36,688 nt of DNA, taken from NCBI GenBank assembly GCA_003152225.1, contig PLZQ01000258.1, forward strand, positions 7,915 through 44,602. Direction: 5' to 3'. Position 1 is the first letter of the stretch. Every line of letters begins with the position of its first letter. This stretch comes from Limisphaerales bacterium (GTDB taxonomy: Bacteria; Verrucomicrobiota; Verrucomicrobiia; Limisphaerales; UBA8199). The notes beneath the pieces were generated by a model. That model saw nothing but the letters and a program-made list of their open reading frames with translations, had not been told where the DNA came from and did not search any database. This document shows, in pieces, positions 2,976 to 28,691 of the stretch. The translations under genes and the position numbers were made by a program.

Positions 2976-3001
2976 AGACAACCCAACCATGAAAGGCTAA
3001 C

Positions 3002-3217
3002 ATGAACTCGCTACCGTTCATTTCTCACCATCTCTTTGTGGAGGCCGTTGCCAGCGAGGGCCGCGCGCACGCGAGACCGGCGCGCCACGACCGGCCTGCT
3101 GTCGAGCTGGCAGACCCGGTCACTGTCATTCCGTTGGAATTGCTCGAGGACCGGCAGCCGTTGCCGGCCGGCGCGACCCACCCGTTGTGGATCTCGGCCA
3201 GCCAGGCACGAGGTTGA
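3002..3217 (+). CDS. Small unknown protein between ftsI and murF
   Basis: A 71-residue reading frame with ATG at 3002, preceded at short distance by AAAGG, a reasonable ribosome binding site. It begins MNSLPFISHHLFVEAV and has no membrane segment or known motif. Codon use (G/C-rich third positions) resembles the neighbouring genes. It lies 26 nt after ftsI and 42 nt before murF, exactly where murE sits in most dcw clusters. None of the three frames here shows MurE motifs, so it is not a murE remnant that I can recognise. Function is unknown; the alternative is fortuitous coding in a gap left by murE loss. The SHHLF motif could be a metal or ligand site, but that is only a guess. Confidence 0.5.
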   Translation: MNSLPFISHHLFVEAVASEGRAHARPARHDRPAVELADPVTVIPLELLEDRQPLPAGATHPLWISASQARG

Positions 3218-3259
3218 CCCGGCGGCGAAGGTCGCCGAAGGAAGGGATTGAAGGTTTGG

Positions 3260-5807: not shown

Positions 5808-6141
5808 ATGCTGGAACTGGAAAACAAACAGACTCGGGTCGTTAGCTTAGCCGGCAGCGGCCACACGGAGTGCGGGTTTCGTGGTGCCGGAACGTTGCTC
5901 TTGAGACAGGTCAGGCTCGCCTTCGCCCGGCGCGAAGCCGGCGAGCCAATTCGCGCCGCCGGTGGCCTGTTTTCCTCCTTGCGCCAGCGCGGGATCGTTG
6001 CTAGAAGCAGAGGCAGAAGCGGCGAAGAAAGCGACTTCAGGCGACGCAGAAATGCTTGCACCGGCTTGTTCGAGTCGGGATCAGTTTCGAAACCACCAGC
6101 CTCGCGGTGAAGTCATTTGCCAAGCAACGAAATCAATAGGT
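5808..6141 (+). pseudogene. murD: murD relic with the middle deleted (both ends kept)
   Basis: MurD would add D-Glu to UDP-MurNAc-L-Ala. An ATG one base after mraY starts MLELENKQTRVVSLAGSG, matching the N-terminus of MurD, in which a glycine-rich VVGLGxSG loop is typical. In another frame, about 5970-6141, the sequence SLLEAEAEAAKKATSGDAEM and then LAPACSSRDQFRNHQPRGEV matches the MurD C-terminus (typically LLSPACSSFDQFRNxxxRGEVF). The remaining roughly 380 codons, including the ATP loop and central domain, are missing, the two ends are in different frames, and the C-terminal frame has an in-frame stop upstream. It cannot encode a ligase. Position between mraY and the LysM/ftsW genes is the canonical place for murD. 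Confidence 0.78.
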
Positions 6142-6319
6142 AGGGGTATCCGCGGCGACACCCCCAACATAAATGGTAAAACAGCGACAGCGCGACAGTG
6201 AAGCGACCAGCGGCACATAACGATTTTGCACCGGGGCCTTATGAGGAAAAACCTCGGAGCGAAGCGAACACATTCAACCAAGACCTCAATAAAAACAGGC
6301 GCAATAGCGCCATTTGAAA
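6142..6319 (+). other. Non-coding gap before the LysM gene, with a small hairpin
   Basis: After the murD relic there is no plausible reading frame and no clear promoter. A short perfect inverted repeat, GGCGC-AATA-GCGCC at 6299-6312, lies 7 nt before the ATG of the LysM gene. No Shine-Dalgarno sequence is visible there, so the hairpin could affect translation initiation, but a five-base-pair stem is easily fortuitous. Confidence 0.35.
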
Positions 6320-8340: not shown

Positions 8341-9611
8341 CGCCATTATCCCAATCGCCGGTTCGCGTGGCCATCGCCTGTGGTGGGACAGGCGGGCACC
8401 TCTTTCCGGGTTTGGCGGTCGCCGACCAGCTTGTGCGACGCGGTTGTGAAGTCATGCTGCTCATCTCGCCCAAGGACGTGGATCAGCAAGCCGTCCAGGG
8501 TGTTACTGGCATGCAAATCGTTACGCTGCCCGCGGTCGGCTTGAAACGCGGCGGGGAACTCGCCTTTGTCCGCGGATTCATCCAATCTTACCGCGCGGCG
8601 GCGCGACTGTTCAAGTCTCGCCCCCCGCAGGCCGCCCTGGCGATGGGCGGCTTCACTAGCGCGCCGCCGATCCTGGCCGCCCGGCGGGCTGGCGCGCGCA
8701 CGTTTCTGCATGAATCCAATTCGATTCCGGGGCGCGCGAACCGCTGGCTGTCTCGGGTGGTGCAACGCGCGTTTGTCGGCTTCCCCGCGGCGGGTGGCCG
8801 TTTGCATAATCGCAAAGTGACGGTGACCGGCACGCCGGTGCGCGCTGGCTTCCACGCCCGCGAGGCGGCTGCTTGCCGGACGAGGCTGGGTCTTGACCCG
8901 GCACGCCCCGTCCTGCTCGTAATGGGCGGGAGCCAGGGCGCGAGCGGCATCAACGAGCTGGTGCTTCGAGCCCTGCCATTGCTTGCCGGCCGCGCTCCCG
9001 ATTTGCAGTGGCTCCATCTGACGGGCCCCAGCGACACGCAGAAGATGAGCCAGGCTTACGCCGCGTCGAAGCTGAAGGCGGTCGTGCACCCGTTCTTTGC
9101 CGAGATGGATGTGGCGTTGGGCGCGGCGACCGCCGCGGTCTCGCGCGCGGGCGCTTCCTCGCTCGCCGAACTCGCGGCGATGCGCGTGCCGGCGGTGCTC
9201 GTTCCCTATCCGGCCGCCACGGACAATCACCAGTTTTATAACGCCCGTGCTTTCGAGGCCACGGGTGCGGCCTGCTTGCTCGAGCAAAAAAGCGCGACGC
9301 CGGAAACACTGGCCCAATTGCTGTTGGACCTGATCGAGAAGCCGGCGGCGCATGAGCGGATGCGGAGCGCCCTGGCGCAATGGCACGCCCCGCACGCCGC
9401 GGAGCAAATCGCTGACGCTATGTTGCTTCCCGCGGGAGCCGAGGCTGGCAAAGGTTGTTGCGCTGATCCGGAATCGGTTGCCTCGCCGGGCATCCGGACC
9501 TCGGACACCGGGAGCAAGCCGACACTGTCGCGATGCTCGCAGTCCGACCGAACGGAACTCCGCGAGCCAGGCCGTCCCACAGCCGCACTGCCGGAACGGA
9601 GGGCGGCTTGA
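8337..9611 (+). CDS. murG: Lipid II synthase MurG with an unusual C-terminal tail
   Basis: Membrane-associated glycosyltransferase (424 residues) that adds GlcNAc from UDP-GlcNAc to lipid I. Motifs: GGTGGHLFPGLAVAD (N-terminal glycine loop), MGGFTSAPP, HESNSIPGRAN (HEQN in most homologues), VMGGSQGASGINE, and the C-terminal sugar-nucleotide block SRAGASSLAEL plus VPYPAATDNHQFYNA. The recognisable enzyme ends near residue 365, about position 9432. A further 59 residues (9433-9608) are Arg/Ser/Pro rich, unlike MurG, and occupy the place where murC is normally found. The ATG overlaps the ftsW stop; its own stop overlaps a TTG start for murB. Confidence 0.94.
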   Translation: MTPLSQSPVRVAIACGGTGGHLFPGLAVADQLVRRGCEVMLLISPKDVDQQAVQGVTGMQIVTLPAVGLKRGGELAFVRGFIQSYRAAARLFKSRPPQAALAMGGFTSAPPILAARRAGARTFLHESNSIPGRANRWLSRVVQRAFVGFPAAGGRLHNRKVTVTGTPVRAGFHAREAAACRTRLGLDPARPVLLVMGGSQGASGINELVLRALPLLAGRAPDLQWLHLTGPSDTQKMSQAYAASKLKAVVHPFFAEMDVALGAATAAVSRAGASSLAELAAMRVPAVLVPYPAATDNHQFYNARAFEATGAACLLEQKSATPETLAQLLLDLIEKPAAHERMRSALAQWHAPHAAEQIADAMLLPAGAEAGKGCCADPESVASPGIRTSDTGSKPTLSRCSQSDRTELREPGRPTAALPERRAA

Positions 9612-10555
9612 CTCGCCAGGATGCTATTCTGGAGAAGCCTGAGCTGAGCCAGGCGGGAGCGGCGGATGTGCTGGCGCAGCGCGTCTCGCCGGCCACGGTG
9701 ATTCGTCGCGACGAACCGCTGGCCAAACACACGACCTTGCGGGTTGGCGGGCCGGCGCAGGTTTATGTTGAACCGGCTTCGGAACCGGACTTGGCGGCCG
9801 TCCTGGCCAGTTGCCAGGAGCGCGGCTGGCGGTTCTTCGTGCTCGGCCGCGGCTCGAACCTGCTGGTGAAAGATGGCGGTTTCCCTGGCGTGGTTATCTG
9901 TCTGGCTCATGCCCATTTTAGCCGAATTGAAGTGGCGGGCGAGCGTCTGAATTGCGGCGCAGGCGGGAAACTGAAGGCGGTCGCGGTCGAAGCCAAGCGC
10001 AACAGTTTGGCCGGCCTGGAGTTCCTGGAAGGCATCCCCGGCAGCGTCGGCGGCGCGTTGCGCATGAACGCCGGGGCTATGGGCTGCGCGATGCTTGACG
10101 TGGTTGAGTCCGTTCGTCTGATGAGTTTTGACGGGGAGGTGCAGGAGCGGCCCGCCCGGGAGCTCGCGGCTACGTACCGCAACTGCCAGACCCTGAGGAC
10201 GCACCTCGCGCTGGGGGCGGTGTTGCGCGGCCAGCCCGGCTCGCGCGAGATAATCGAGCAGCGCATGAACGAGTACAGCCGGAAGCGGTGGACATCCCAG
10301 CCCGCCGCGCCGAGCGCCGGCTGCATATTCAAGAACCCGCCCGCAATTCCCGCCGGCAAGCTGATCGATGAACTGGGGTTGAAAGGAACGCGCGTCGGGG
10401 GAGCGGTGGTGTCGGCCGAGCACGGCAACTTCATTGTTAACAGCGGCGCGGCCACGGCGCGCGACATCCTGGACTTGATCGAGATCGTCCGGCAACGCGT
10501 TCGGGCTACCTGCGGAATCGAGTTGGAAACCGAAGTCGAAATCGTAGGCGAATGA
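9608..10555 (+). CDS. murB: UDP-N-acetylenolpyruvoylglucosamine reductase MurB
   Basis: FAD/NADPH enzyme that reduces UDP-GlcNAc-enolpyruvate to UDP-MurNAc. Motifs: LAKHTTLRVGGPA at the start of the FAD domain, LGRGSNLLVKDGG, EGIPGSVGGALRMNAGA, SAGCIFKNP with a Cys where many homologues have the catalytic Ser (Cys occurs in some MurB proteins), and GGAVVSAEHGNFIVN. I chose the TTG at 9608 (315 residues) because GGAGGG at 9598-9603 is well placed and the length fits the family. An ATG at 9533 would add 25 residues of unrelated sequence inside murG. The stop overlaps the ddl ATG. murC, which normally precedes this gene, is missing. Confidence 0.93.
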   Translation: MTRQDAILEKPELSQAGAADVLAQRVSPATVIRRDEPLAKHTTLRVGGPAQVYVEPASEPDLAAVLASCQERGWRFFVLGRGSNLLVKDGGFPGVVICLAHAHFSRIEVAGERLNCGAGGKLKAVAVEAKRNSLAGLEFLEGIPGSVGGALRMNAGAMGCAMLDVVESVRLMSFDGEVQERPARELAATYRNCQTLRTHLALGAVLRGQPGSREIIEQRMNEYSRKRWTSQPAAPSAGCIFKNPPAIPAGKLIDELGLKGTRVGGAVVSAEHGNFIVNSGAATARDILDLIEIVRQRVRATCGIELETEVEIVGE

Positions 10556-11464: not shown

Positions 11465-12424
11465 ATGTGGTTTAGACGCAAGCCAAAGAACCGGCGGCTC
11501 GGCCGCGAGCAGGTGCTGGACGTGAAGTTGCGCTCCAGCCAGGTTCGCGCCGCGCGGACGCGCCTGGGCGCGATCTGCCTCGGTGTGCTCTTCGCGACCG
11601 TCTTTGGCCTGTATTTGGTCTATCGCACCGGGGATTGGGCCCTCAACCGGTGTGTCTATGAGAATAAGGCCTTCACCATCCAGGAGCTGGACGTGCAGAC
11701 CGATGGCGTTATCGCGGTGGACCAACTGCGTCGCTGGGCCGGAGTCGCGTCCGACGAGAACCTGCTGGCGCTCGATCTCGCCCGTGTCAAACGGGACCTG
11801 GAGATGGACTCCCGGATCAAGTCCGTCTCGGTTGAGCGCATCCTTCCCCGCACCTTGCGTATCCGCGTTACGGAGCGCGAGCCGGTCGCGCAAGTCAACG
11901 TCCCCTTGCCGCGTCGGAGCGGAGGGATTGAATTGGCCGTGTATTATCTGGACGCGGAGGGCTATGTCATGTTGCCGCTGGACCCGCGCCAGCGAGCCAC
12001 GCGGACCAACCAGGGGACTAATTCGTTCCCCGTGATCGCCGGCATCAACGCCAGTGAACTGCAGCCCGGCCGGCGCATCCTCACCCCTTCCGTCCAGGCG
12101 GCGCTGCAACTCATCATGGCCTTCGACCAATCGTCTATGTCCACGGTGGTTGATCTGAAGCGCGTTGACGCGTCCTCCCCGTCCGTGTTGGTCGCGACGA
12201 CGGGGCAGGGGAGCGAGGTGGTCTTTGGCCTGGTGGACCTGGACCAGCAACTGCTGCGGTGGTATGAAGTTTTTAACTTCGGCCAGAAGCAGAGCAAGGC
12301 CATTGCCAATCTCGATCTTGCGGTTACCAAAAACCTGCCTATACGCTGGATTGAGGCCAGCGCGGTGCCCCCTTCCGCCCCGAAGTTACCCAAAACTTTG
12401 CGCCCCAAGAAACAACATGTTTAA
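11465..12424 (+). CDS. ftsQ: Division protein FtsQ
   Basis: Bitopic inner-membrane protein of 319 residues. A basic cytoplasmic tail (1-35) precedes one membrane helix (about 36-57, GAICLGVLFATVFGLYLVY). A periplasmic POTRA domain follows (about 70-140), from FTIQELDVQ through LARVKRDLEMDSRIKSVSV to LPRTLRIRVTEREP, the FtsQ/DivIB hallmark. A beta domain completes the periplasmic part. FtsQ scaffolds FtsB/FtsL and recruits the septal synthase. It starts one base after ddl and its last eight bases overlap ftsA, the canonical ddl-ftsQ-ftsA-ftsZ order. Confidence 0.9.
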   Translation: MWFRRKPKNRRLGREQVLDVKLRSSQVRAARTRLGAICLGVLFATVFGLYLVYRTGDWALNRCVYENKAFTIQELDVQTDGVIAVDQLRRWAGVASDENLLALDLARVKRDLEMDSRIKSVSVERILPRTLRIRVTEREPVAQVNVPLPRRSGGIELAVYYLDAEGYVMLPLDPRQRATRTNQGTNSFPVIAGINASELQPGRRILTPSVQAALQLIMAFDQSSMSTVVDLKRVDASSPSVLVATTGQGSEVVFGLVDLDQQLLRWYEVFNFGQKQSKAIANLDLAVTKNLPIRWIEASAVPPSAPKLPKTLRPKKQHV

Positions 12425-13640
12425 TTCCTCTTCGATCATCGTAGGACTGGAAATCGGCACGTCCAAGGTCTGCGCTGTAGTCGGCGATCTTGCCGCTGAC
12501 GGCGCGCTGAATATTGTCGGCCTCGGCCAGTCGCGCTCGCGCGGCGTGCGCAAAGGAGAAATCGCCGACGCGACCCTCGCCGAAGAGGATGTGCGCCAGG
12601 CCATCGTCGAAGCGGAGCAGATGGCCGATGTCGAAATCCGCAGCGTCTATCTCGGCGTGACGGGCGGCCACCTGCGCGGCTTCAACAACCGCGGCGTGCA
12701 TCCGGTCGCGTCCTCCGACCGCGAGATCTCGGAAGAGGACGTGCAGGACGTGATCAAGAACGCCAAGGCGATCAATCTGCCCGCCCAGAACCACGTCATC
12801 CACGCTATCCGCCAGCATTTTCTCGTGGACGGGCAGGACGGCATCACCAACCCGGTGGGTATGCTCGGCGCGCGCATTGAGGTGGACGTGCACGTCGTGC
12901 ACGGGAACCTGAACCGGCTGCAAAACGCGATTCGCACGGTCAAGGGGCTGCAACTGGAGGTGGATGACATCGTGTTCAATGGCCTGGCTTCCTCGCTCGC
13001 CTTGCTCACAAACGAACAGAAGGAGCTCGGCTCGCTGGTCATCGACATCGGCGGCGGGACGACCGACTATGTCCTCTATGCCAACGGGATCATCAAGCAC
13101 ACCGGCGTGCTCGCCGTGGGCGGTGATCACGTGTCCAACGACCTGGCCTACGGCTTGAAGGTGCCGCTCAGCCGCGCCGAGCAGCTCAAGCTCGAACACG
13201 GCGCCAGCTTTCTCGAGGACTCCGCCAAGGGCCAGTCGATCACGATCTCCAACGAGCACGGCCTCCCGGTCAAGACCATCAACCTCGAACATCTGCGCCG
13301 TATCATGGCGCTGCGGCTGGAGGAAATATTCCAGCTCGTCGGCCAGGACCTCGAGCAGGCGGGCGCGCTGGATTACCTGCGCGCCGGGGTGTTCCTGTGC
13401 GGCGGCGGGGCGCGCATCCCGCAGATCGCCAAGCTCGCCGAGCAGGTCCTGCAGATGCCCGTGTTCCTCGGCAAGACCAACTCGATCAGCGGGCTCAAGT
13501 CCGCCCTCGACCAGCCCGAGTTCGCGACGGCCATCGGGCTGGTGAAGTTCGGCTCGTTCCAACAGCGCAAGCGCGCCGCCAAGTCCTCCCTGACGGACGG
13601 CATCAAGAGCACCCTGGGCCAGCTTTTCCGGCGGGTTTGA
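12417..13640 (+). CDS. ftsA: Actin-like division protein FtsA
   Basis: Actin-fold ATPase (407 residues) that tethers FtsZ to the membrane. Visible motifs: phosphate-1 VGLEIGTSKVCAVVG, the 1C domain after it, phosphate-2 LVIDIGGGTTDY, AVGGDHVSNDLA, and adenosine motif VFLCGGGARIPQ. The C-terminus (SLTDGIKSTLGQLFRRV) looks like the amphipathic membrane-targeting helix. The ATG at 12417 overlaps ftsQ by eight bases and gives the usual family length. ftsZ follows after a 32-nt gap. It appears fully intact, unlike the altered FtsZ next to it. Confidence 0.96.
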   Translation: MFNSSSIIVGLEIGTSKVCAVVGDLAADGALNIVGLGQSRSRGVRKGEIADATLAEEDVRQAIVEAEQMADVEIRSVYLGVTGGHLRGFNNRGVHPVASSDREISEEDVQDVIKNAKAINLPAQNHVIHAIRQHFLVDGQDGITNPVGMLGARIEVDVHVVHGNLNRLQNAIRTVKGLQLEVDDIVFNGLASSLALLTNEQKELGSLVIDIGGGTTDYVLYANGIIKHTGVLAVGGDHVSNDLAYGLKVPLSRAEQLKLEHGASFLEDSAKGQSITISNEHGLPVKTINLEHLRRIMALRLEEIFQLVGQDLEQAGALDYLRAGVFLCGGGARIPQIAKLAEQVLQMPVFLGKTNSISGLKSALDQPEFATAIGLVKFGSFQQRKRAAKSSLTDGIKSTLGQLFRRV

Positions 13641-13672: not shown

Positions 13673-14971
13673 ATGAATACGAATGCACAGACAGACGCGG
13701 CGGTGGCAGCTCCGAAAAAGAACCTCTCGGTGAAGGTGGTTGGCGTGGGCGGCGGGGGTATCACCGTAATGGAACTCATGCGCAAAAGCGGCCTGCCCGA
13801 GGTGAGCTTTGCGGCGGTCGAGACGGATGCGCAATCGCTCGCGGCCTCCACCGCCACCGAAAAGGTTCACCTGGAAACGCAACTCCTCCGCGGGCTGGGC
13901 ACGGGCGGCGACCCGGACCGCGGCCGCGCGCTGGCCGAGGAGCAGTTGCCGAAGCTCAAGGCCGTCTGCGAGGGAGCGGATGTGGTTTTCATCCTGGCCG
14001 GTCTGGGGGGCGGCGCCGGGACGGGCATCAGCCCGGTGCTGGCGCGCGCGGCGAAAGAGGCCGGCGCCCTGGCGCTTGGCTTCGTGACGACGCCCTTCGA
14101 ATGTGAATGCGGCCACCGGCGGCGCGTGGCACAGCATGGCCTGATGGAGCTCAAGTCCTCCGCCGACGGTGTCATCTGTCTGCCGAACCAGAAGGTATTC
14201 AAGATGATCGACGAGAACACCAGCGTGCTGGAGACGTTCAAGATCACCAATGACTACCTCGCCGACGGCGTGCGCGGCGTCTGGCGCCTGCTGATGCATA
14301 AGGGGCTTCTTGAAATTCATTTCGCCGACTTGGCGGCGCTGCTCCGGGACCGGCACGCGGAGAGTTCCTTCGCCGTGGCCGAAGCCATGGGGCCGACGCG
14401 TTCGCGCGAGGTCATGGATAAGTTGCTGGCGCATCCGATGCTGGACGGCGGCCAGATGCTCGGTGAATCCGATGCCGTGCTGGTGAGTTTGATCGGGGGG
14501 CGGGACCTGACCATGGCCGAAATCAATCGCGTGATGGAGCAGCTCAACCGCCAGTGCGAGCACGCCCAGGTGATCATGGGCGCCGCCATTGATGAGGCCT
14601 TCAGCGAGCGCCTGGCGGTGACGCTCATCGCGACGCGAAAGAACCCTGAGCATGCGTCCGAGGGAACCGGCGCCGCGGCGAGCGCTGAAGAGCTGGACCA
14701 GCAACTATTGTCTCAAACGGCAACCGCGCGGCCCGGCTCAAGATTCGTGCCTCCGCCTCCGACTTTGCCGTCGGACCAGGTCCAGGAACTCTTCGCGCGG
14801 CAGGGCCGGGGTGGCTCCCGCCAACGCAAGCATCCGTCCCGGCTGCGGCAGACCCAGTTGCCGCTTGAGATCATCTCCAAAGGCCGGTTCGACAAGAGCG
14901 AGCCGACCATCCACAAGGGCGAGGATCTTGACGTGCCCACCTACCTCCGCCGCAACGTGGCGCTGAACTGA
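13673..14971 (+). CDS. ftsZ: FtsZ, divergent, with altered GTPase-site residues
   Basis: Tubulin-like division protein of 432 residues. The T1 glycine loop (KVVGVGGGG, 21-29), the ETDAQSL strand (50-56, Glu where NTDAQ is usual), the T4 loop GGGAGTG (112-118), the PNQKVF segment, ISGG-like LIGGRDLT and GAAIDE blocks, and the C-terminal conserved peptide DLDVPTYLRRN that binds FtsA are all recognisable. The tubulin signature normally has Thr where A115 is. The T7 loop, normally NxDxxD, reads E214-I-H216-F-A-D219: only the last Asp remains. These residues complete the active site of the neighbouring subunit, so GTP hydrolysis is probably weakened or changed. The ATG at 13673 is chosen on homology. 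Position after ftsA is canonical. Confidence 0.9.
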   Translation: MNTNAQTDAAVAAPKKNLSVKVVGVGGGGITVMELMRKSGLPEVSFAAVETDAQSLAASTATEKVHLETQLLRGLGTGGDPDRGRALAEEQLPKLKAVCEGADVVFILAGLGGGAGTGISPVLARAAKEAGALALGFVTTPFECECGHRRRVAQHGLMELKSSADGVICLPNQKVFKMIDENTSVLETFKITNDYLADGVRGVWRLLMHKGLLEIHFADLAALLRDRHAESSFAVAEAMGPTRSREVMDKLLAHPMLDGGQMLGESDAVLVSLIGGRDLTMAEINRVMEQLNRQCEHAQVIMGAAIDEAFSERLAVTLIATRKNPEHASEGTGAAASAEELDQQLLSQTATARPGSRFVPPPPTLPSDQVQELFARQGRGGSRQRKHPSRLRQTQLPLEIISKGRFDKSEPTIHKGEDLDVPTYLRRNVALN

Positions 14972-27853: not shown

Positions 27854-27868
27854 ACACATTTGGAGGAT
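27854..27868 (+). promoter_or_regulatory. Shared 15-bp motif, copy D (weaker)
   Basis: ACACATTTGGAGGAT, the least conserved copy (left ATCC replaced by ACAC, but inner CATTTGG and GGAT kept). It lies 53 nt after the first pseudopilin stop and 62 nt before the preferred ATG of the second, the same spacing as copy C within 3 nt. Confidence 0.38.
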
Positions 27869-27929
27869 GACACATGCATGGAACTGTATTAGGCTTGCAG
27901 CTATGACTGCGATATTCTGCGAAGCTCGC

Positions 27930-28691
27930 ATGGCGAACACTTCGGGACCCAGTACCTCGCCGCGCAGCCGGGAGGGGTTTACACTGATCGAACTACTGGT
28001 CGTCATCGCCATCATTGCCATTCTCGCGTCGCTGCTCCTGCCCGCGTTGAGCCTCGCTAAAGCCAAGGCGGTTCAGACGCAGTGCCTTTCCAACCTCAAA
28101 CAGCTCAACCTCGCCATGGTGCTTTACTGCGGAGACAACCAAGACCGAACCCCGGGGAGTGAAAGCGCAAACAACCTCACCGGCATCTCGTGGTACGGGG
28201 GCCACAAGGACATCTGGTGGTGGTACAAAGAATTGGACAAAGTCTATGCCGGCGTAAGGCAGGCATCTCCCAGCAATCATATGGTCTTCCGTTGCGCCAA
28301 AGACCGCGGTTGGAAGGACTATGGGTTCCCGATGCCTCACCATGACAACCCAGTGCTCGATTACGGCAGCTATGTGTTCAATGGATGCACCAACCGCGGT
28401 AACCCGAAGAACAGTCTCCTGGACATCCCTTTGACCAACGTCAAACACCCTACGCGCACTTGGCTGATGTCTGAGTGGCCAATCCACTGGGCTTACTCCT
28501 GGCACAAGAGCAAGACAGGAGATGCGGACATTTCCTACAAGGACGCGCTCTGTAACGTCAGCATGGTGGACGGGCATGCCCAGTATATTAAGATCTACTA
28601 TAACCCGTCCGTGCCCAACGGCGACGCCCCCTTCGCCTACGATACCTCAGAGATTCCCGCAAATTATGGTTACCAGAATGCACCGGACTGA
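27930..28691 (+). CDS. Pseudopilin with degenerate H-X9-DG motif (second)
   Basis: 253 residues from ATG 27930 (in-frame ATGs at 27867 and 27903 would lengthen the leader). The leader [16 protein letters not shown] is followed by [20 protein letters not shown]. The mature part shares [15 protein letters not shown] with the first pseudopilin's [15 protein letters not shown], showing common ancestry, but differs afterwards. The end has [13 protein letters not shown], where the His of the H-X9-DG motif is replaced by Lys. Trp/Tyr-rich mid region ([15 protein letters not shown]). It is likely another minor pseudopilin of the same machine. The following gene begins 5 nt after the stop. Confidence 0.88.

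Follow-up and report, generated by a model that had tools for sequence, protein, structure and literature searches.

The DNA analysed here (the window, a stretch of 36,688 nucleotides from a Limisphaerales genome) carries a division and cell-wall cluster in the order rsmH (cut), ftsL, ftsI, murF, mraY, ftsW, murG, murB, ddl, ftsQ, ftsA and ftsZ. The ftsQ gene (11465–12424, plus strand) is recognized by its POTRA_1 domain, and ftsA (12417–13640, plus strand), encoding the membrane anchor of FtsZ, by domain and family matches and by conservation. The last gene of the cluster starts 32 bases behind ftsA and is an open frame of 432 amino acids (13673–14971, plus strand) for FtsZ. Its product has the Pfam domains Tubulin (125.7 bits) and FtsZ_C (56.4 bits), both over cut-off, and its predicted structure is the FtsZ fold, with a TM score of 0.88 to SaFtsZ. 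The NCBIfam equivalog model for ftsZ (TIGR00065) scores it at 268.4 bits, under the cut-off of 295.2. This is a matter of the divergence of the whole class, since the cut-off is reached in only 29 of 141 class genomes, with FtsZ present as a match of some score in 139 of them. Here and below, the family, the order and the class are those of the source genome, which belongs to the order Limisphaerales. Orthology rests on the place in the dcw cluster behind ftsQ and ftsA and on the C-terminal tail.

We searched the genome's own assembly (8.4 Mb in 563 contigs, about 90% complete and 6% contaminated) with family models. The PF00091 profile found no second Tubulin/FtsZ gene in this about 90% complete assembly, and no Tubulin_C domain, the mark of BtubA and BtubB, was matched in the genome; the protein carries FtsZ_C instead. 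A second, canonical FtsZ or a tubulin that does the catalysis was thus not found in the assembly, nor as a rule in the relatives. The protein is the orthologous division FtsZ, as the earlier note had argued from the tail and the position behind ftsA, and the only FtsZ found in the assembly; that note had advised looking for a second copy. The gene is under purifying selection: dN/dS between ftsZ genes of the family is 0.16–0.26, with synonymous sites near saturation in the more distant pairs. Considering that the nucleotide-pocket residues persist and that dN/dS is about 0.2, the gene works; a pseudogene is ruled out by dN/dS together with the open frames.

The departures from canonical FtsZ lie in the active site. 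The T7 (synergy) loop E214-I-H216-F-A-D219 (14312–14329, plus strand) was located by alignment. It reads LEIHFADL for the MNVDFADV of E. coli FtsZ in a gap-free MAFFT alignment, and a second alignment, to a profile built from canonical FtsZs only, placed the loop identically. With both alignments gap-free, the residues are replaced and not displaced, and displacement, which the earlier note had itself raised against its claim, is ruled out. E. coli N207 corresponds to E214 and D209 to H216, whereas D212 (S. aureus D213) is unchanged as D219. The motif N-x-D-x-x-D has therefore become E-x-H-x-x-D, with one of three residues kept. The earlier note, in which E214, H216 and D219 all counted as replacements, was right on the loss of N207 and D209 and overcounted by one in D219. 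Its other two substitutions are as it gave them. The T4 loop, the tubulin signature GGGTGTG, has one change, to GGGAGTG (residues 112–118, 14006–14026, plus strand; E. coli T108 to A), and the T2/H2 segment reads ETDAQ for NTDAQ (residues 50–54, 13820–13834, plus strand), with N43 replaced by E and D45 and Q47 kept. The active-site residues D45, Q47, E138 and R142 (E. coli numbering) are all retained. The T7 mismatch weakens the case for a canonical GTPase but leaves orthology untouched.

The C-terminus is in a different state. An extended conserved tail (14855–14968, plus strand) holds the motif GRFDKSEPT and the FtsA-binding-type peptide GEDLDVPTYLRRN. Its end, DLDVPTYLRR, fits the FtsA-binding pattern D-[IV]-P-x-[FY]-[LI]-R and is near invariant in the order; the DVPTYLRRN peptide reported earlier begins at residue 420. 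Mean column identity within the order is 0.69 for the 38-residue tail and 0.77–0.79 for its motifs GRFDKSEPT and GEDLDVPTYLRRN, against 0.45 for the FtsZ core, 0.49 for T7 and 0.74 for T4. The FtsA-binding tail is thus among the best-kept regions of FtsZ in the order. GRFDKSEPT (14882–14908, residues 404–412) is a second conserved motif directly before the FtsA-binding peptide throughout the order, and is possibly a second binding site. When 80 fetched FtsZs were scanned for it, the motif turned up in a Pedosphaera relative alone; looser versions occur in L178 and in the Lentisphaerales sequence L183.

An alignment with other Limisphaerales, as the earlier note had suggested, revealed that the T7 change is wide and recurrent. 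The family is represented by 13 genomes from 11 genera; none of them has N207, D209 or T108, and all 13 have D or E at 212. The T108 position is A, S or L, and G105, G106, G109, E138, R142 and F182 are invariant in the same 13 genomes. Sequencing error is excluded, because all 13 genomes share the loss. Across the class, N/D/D is kept in 33 of 162 FtsZs, from 22 of 80 families. The canonical-only profile gave 33 of 154, the remaining eight FtsZs, all of family f57, having no T7 loop alignable to it. These eight (L162–L169) come from genomes of 2.2–2.5 Mb and are very divergent, with the C-terminal peptide recognizable in most. Addition of sequences from other classes of the phylum to the class alignment gave N/D/D in 39 of 208. 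Outside the class, all 78 fetched FtsZs have N/D/D (one Lentisphaerales and 77 that are not Verrucomicrobiota by record titles); the search patterns excluded the T7 loop, and the sample leans canonical, since the scan retained those sequences that best matched a canonical query. A scan of public genomes with an FtsZ of the order returned a Pedosphaera MAG (L177) as its best named match. Parsimony requires 20–21 changes at each of the three T7 sites on a tree built without the T7 columns; this tree comes from a fast-evolving protein, FtsZ, and parts of it may be incorrect. As judged from these alignments, the T7 loop has been eroded many times in Verrucomicrobiota, usually with one of the two acids spared. 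A genus that is probably Prosthecobacter-like, judging by its Tubulin_C genes (f69), has K-x-G-x-x-D, with N207 and D209 gone and D212 kept, and putatively Akkermansia-like genomes of 2–3 Mb have lost D209.

When the 80 families are sorted by their T7 acids, 27 have both, 36 only that at 212, 16 only that at 209 and one neither, compared to 7.9 expected with neither (Fisher p=0.0002). A model of evolution in which sites 209 and 212 depend on each other is preferred to one with independent sites (LRT 21.7, 4 d.f., p=2e-4) and puts the rate of second-acid loss four- to five-fold lower. As few tips with neither acid arose in 8% of simulations under the independent model, and for this reason the rule is supported but not secure. 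The sequences suggest that losses at 209 and at 212 avoid each other, such that lineages rarely lose both acids. If the rule holds, it points to hydrolysis that is retained, although reduced, and argues against simple decay.

Of the two partners, FtsZ is normally better conserved than FtsA; in this order the relation is reversed. Mean identity within the order is 69% for FtsA and 53% for the FtsZ core, with FtsA higher in 99% of pairs. Outside the class, in 52 genomes with the two genes together, FtsA averages 33% and the FtsZ core 56%, and FtsA is the higher of the two in 0.3% of pairs; in the rest of the class the reversal is partial (FtsA higher in 15% of pairs). FtsZ cores therefore differ within the order about as much as they do between phyla elsewhere. 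A comparison of ten cluster proteins in up to 21 genomes ranks the FtsZ core second lowest in conservation, above FtsQ alone. Accelerated evolution of ftsZ but not of ftsA was noted for Methylacidiphilum by Hou et al., with data not displayed (PMC2474590).

Treadmilling of the FtsZ ring is held to be powered by the GTP hydrolysis that the T7 aspartates carry out. In filament structures from S. aureus, the equivalents of N207, D209 and D212 touch the metal ions, hold the catalytic water in place and give the site its shape; assembly is lost with any one of the changes N208L, D210N and D213N (PMC8936486). In E. coli, D212A leaves about 7% of the GTPase, a figure quoted in PMC8142252. Extra D212A FtsZ with FtsA gave septa that completed division in E. 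coli which also had wild-type FtsZ (PMC4383033). The earlier claim that assembly dynamics should change is in line with these mutants, which predict altered assembly or hydrolysis (PMC8936486, PMC8142252). We regard it as somewhat probable that the protein is an FtsZ with a remodelled GTPase site, which would bind GTP, hydrolyse it slowly via one T7 acid and act mainly as a scaffold on FtsA. The protein is predicted still to fold, and should bind GTP and dock on FtsA. The catalytic aspartate (D209) and the asparagine that contacts metal and phosphate (N207) are gone, with D219 (D212) as the one T7 acid left. Considering that the published T7 mutants lose assembly or GTPase, hydrolysis would be slow and so would the turnover of filaments. 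In this reading FtsA, conserved better than FtsZ, would hold the protein as a filament or scaffold with bound nucleotide. That the protein binds GTP is an inference, and so are its slow hydrolysis, the slow turnover and its role as a scaffold, all three drawn from the published mutants; if the behaviour of the S. aureus single mutants held here, this FtsZ would not polymerize at all. The phylum-wide extension, in which most FtsZs would run on one T7 acid, the Z-ring would be a slow GTP-bound scaffold and FtsA would be the leading divisome filament, at least in the order, is more tentative and in our view rather doubtful.

Compensated catalysis, the main rival, would give a GTPase near normal, with E214, H216 and D219 as a new triad in which the glutamate serves the metal and the histidine or D219 positions the water. 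All three residues are able to hold a metal or to act as a base, the opposite-face residues D45, E138 and R142 are kept, and the form E/D-I-H-F-x-D recurs in the family and in families f10, f25 and f50. Yet within the same family H, R, P, Q, T or G stands at position 209 and E, D or G at position 207. This variation counts against the triad, because a new catalytic residue should be fixed, and we judge compensation to be fairly unlikely.

A drift towards loss has to be weighed as well, since the sister phyla Planctomycetota and Chlamydiota lost FtsZ: the protein might be becoming dispensable in Verrucomicrobiota, with the loop drifting. FtsZ is very divergent in several families (f57, f68), its core evolves faster than FtsA and most cluster neighbours, and a few genomes have no FtsZ match. 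Against this, FtsZ is found in 139 of 141 class genomes, dN/dS is about 0.2, and residues of the pocket and of the tail are invariant; furthermore, ftsZ is essential in Verrucomicrobium spinosum (PMC12283558). Decay is conceivable for the most divergent families, but it is unsupported for this FtsZ and on the whole improbable.

The earlier note had also tied the T7 change to the loss of murC, murD and murE. The loss is real: the search with family models found none of the three in the assembly, where the Mur-ligase family is represented only by MurF, Mpl (its N-terminus cut by unread bases) and FolC. In the window, positions 2976–3247, 5877–6147 and 9533–10555 bear on the loss of murE, murD and murC from the cluster. 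The murD slot between mraY and ftsW retains a frameshifted remnant (5877–6147, plus strand) of about residues 369–458, a C-terminal piece in two frames (5877–5978 and 5968–6147). In relatives, murB (9671–10555, plus strand) is the 3' part of a murC-murB fusion, seen in the relative L174, from which the murC part is missing here. Among 58 genomes of the order, murC is found over the family cut-off in 20, murE in 27 and murD in 33, and nearly every genome has an Mpl-like match; it may be that Mpl loads a stem tripeptide acquired by a different route. Across 56 genomes of the order, erosion of T7 showed no association with ligase loss (Fisher p=0.38), and with one genome per family there was none either (p=1.0). 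An intact T7 loop occurs in 8 genomes with all three ligases and 9 with losses, an eroded one in 13 and 26, respectively, and two genomes (G040 and G047) have no murC, murD or murE and yet a perfect T7. Thus, that the T7 change is part of a remodelled envelope tied to this ligase loss is very improbable, for the two coincide in this genome, murD scar included, but are unassociated over the genomes and families, with both mismatched classes well filled.

Four known systems come closest to this protein. With canonical FtsZ (E. coli, S. aureus, B. subtilis; TIGR00065) the protein shares the fold, the pocket, the tail, the place behind ftsA, the single copy and the equivalent of D212; it differs in the replaced equivalents of N207, D209, T108 and N43 and in the TIGR00065 score. 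The FtsZs of V. spinosum and Prosthecobacter are of the same phylum and very divergent (PMC1845146, PMC12283558, PMC9871819), so that the divergence of verrucomicrobial FtsZ as such was already known, but the C-terminal extension belongs to V. spinosum. The laboratory mutants E. coli D212A and S. aureus D210N likewise have one T7 acid left; theirs, however, is a canonical background, and D212A removes the other acid, whereas here N207 is lost too and the state is evolutionarily fixed. The thaumarchaeal FtsZ-like protein of Nitrosopumilus maritimus is also a natural relative of FtsZ without N-x-D-x-x-D, but it has lost the GTP-binding motif as well, filaments were not observed, and division of the cell is attributed to Cdv proteins (PMC3684127). 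Unlike it, the present FtsZ retains the pocket, the FtsA tail and the cluster position. For T7 loss in Verrucomicrobiota, the one-acid pattern and the FtsA/FtsZ reversal we found no report in the searchable literature, which covers few subscription journals.

With T7 eroded in most of the phylum and in none of 77 FtsZs from other phyla, the GTP-driven cycle of the Z-ring may be less universal than thought. FtsZ stays present and constrained despite the phylum-wide erosion of the loop and the reversal in the order, and the eroded-loop FtsZs are natural proteins with which to ask whether division needs fast hydrolysis and treadmilling. Cut-offs used to annotate FtsZ may not hold for Verrucomicrobiota, and the same is perhaps true of FtsZ inhibitors.

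Three minor observations are added. A genome of family f72 (G176) has two FtsZ genes (L142 and L171); in the first the T7 loop is eroded (Q-x-T-x-x-D), and the other does not align in this region. A MAG titled Klebsiella pneumoniae (L178, CALQJI020000034.1) carries a Verrucomicrobiota-type FtsZ, 52% identical to that of a member of the order and with the order's tail, and the record seems misnamed. Elsewhere in the window, positions 27867–28691 encode a protein whose N-terminus has a stretch resembling type IV pilin.
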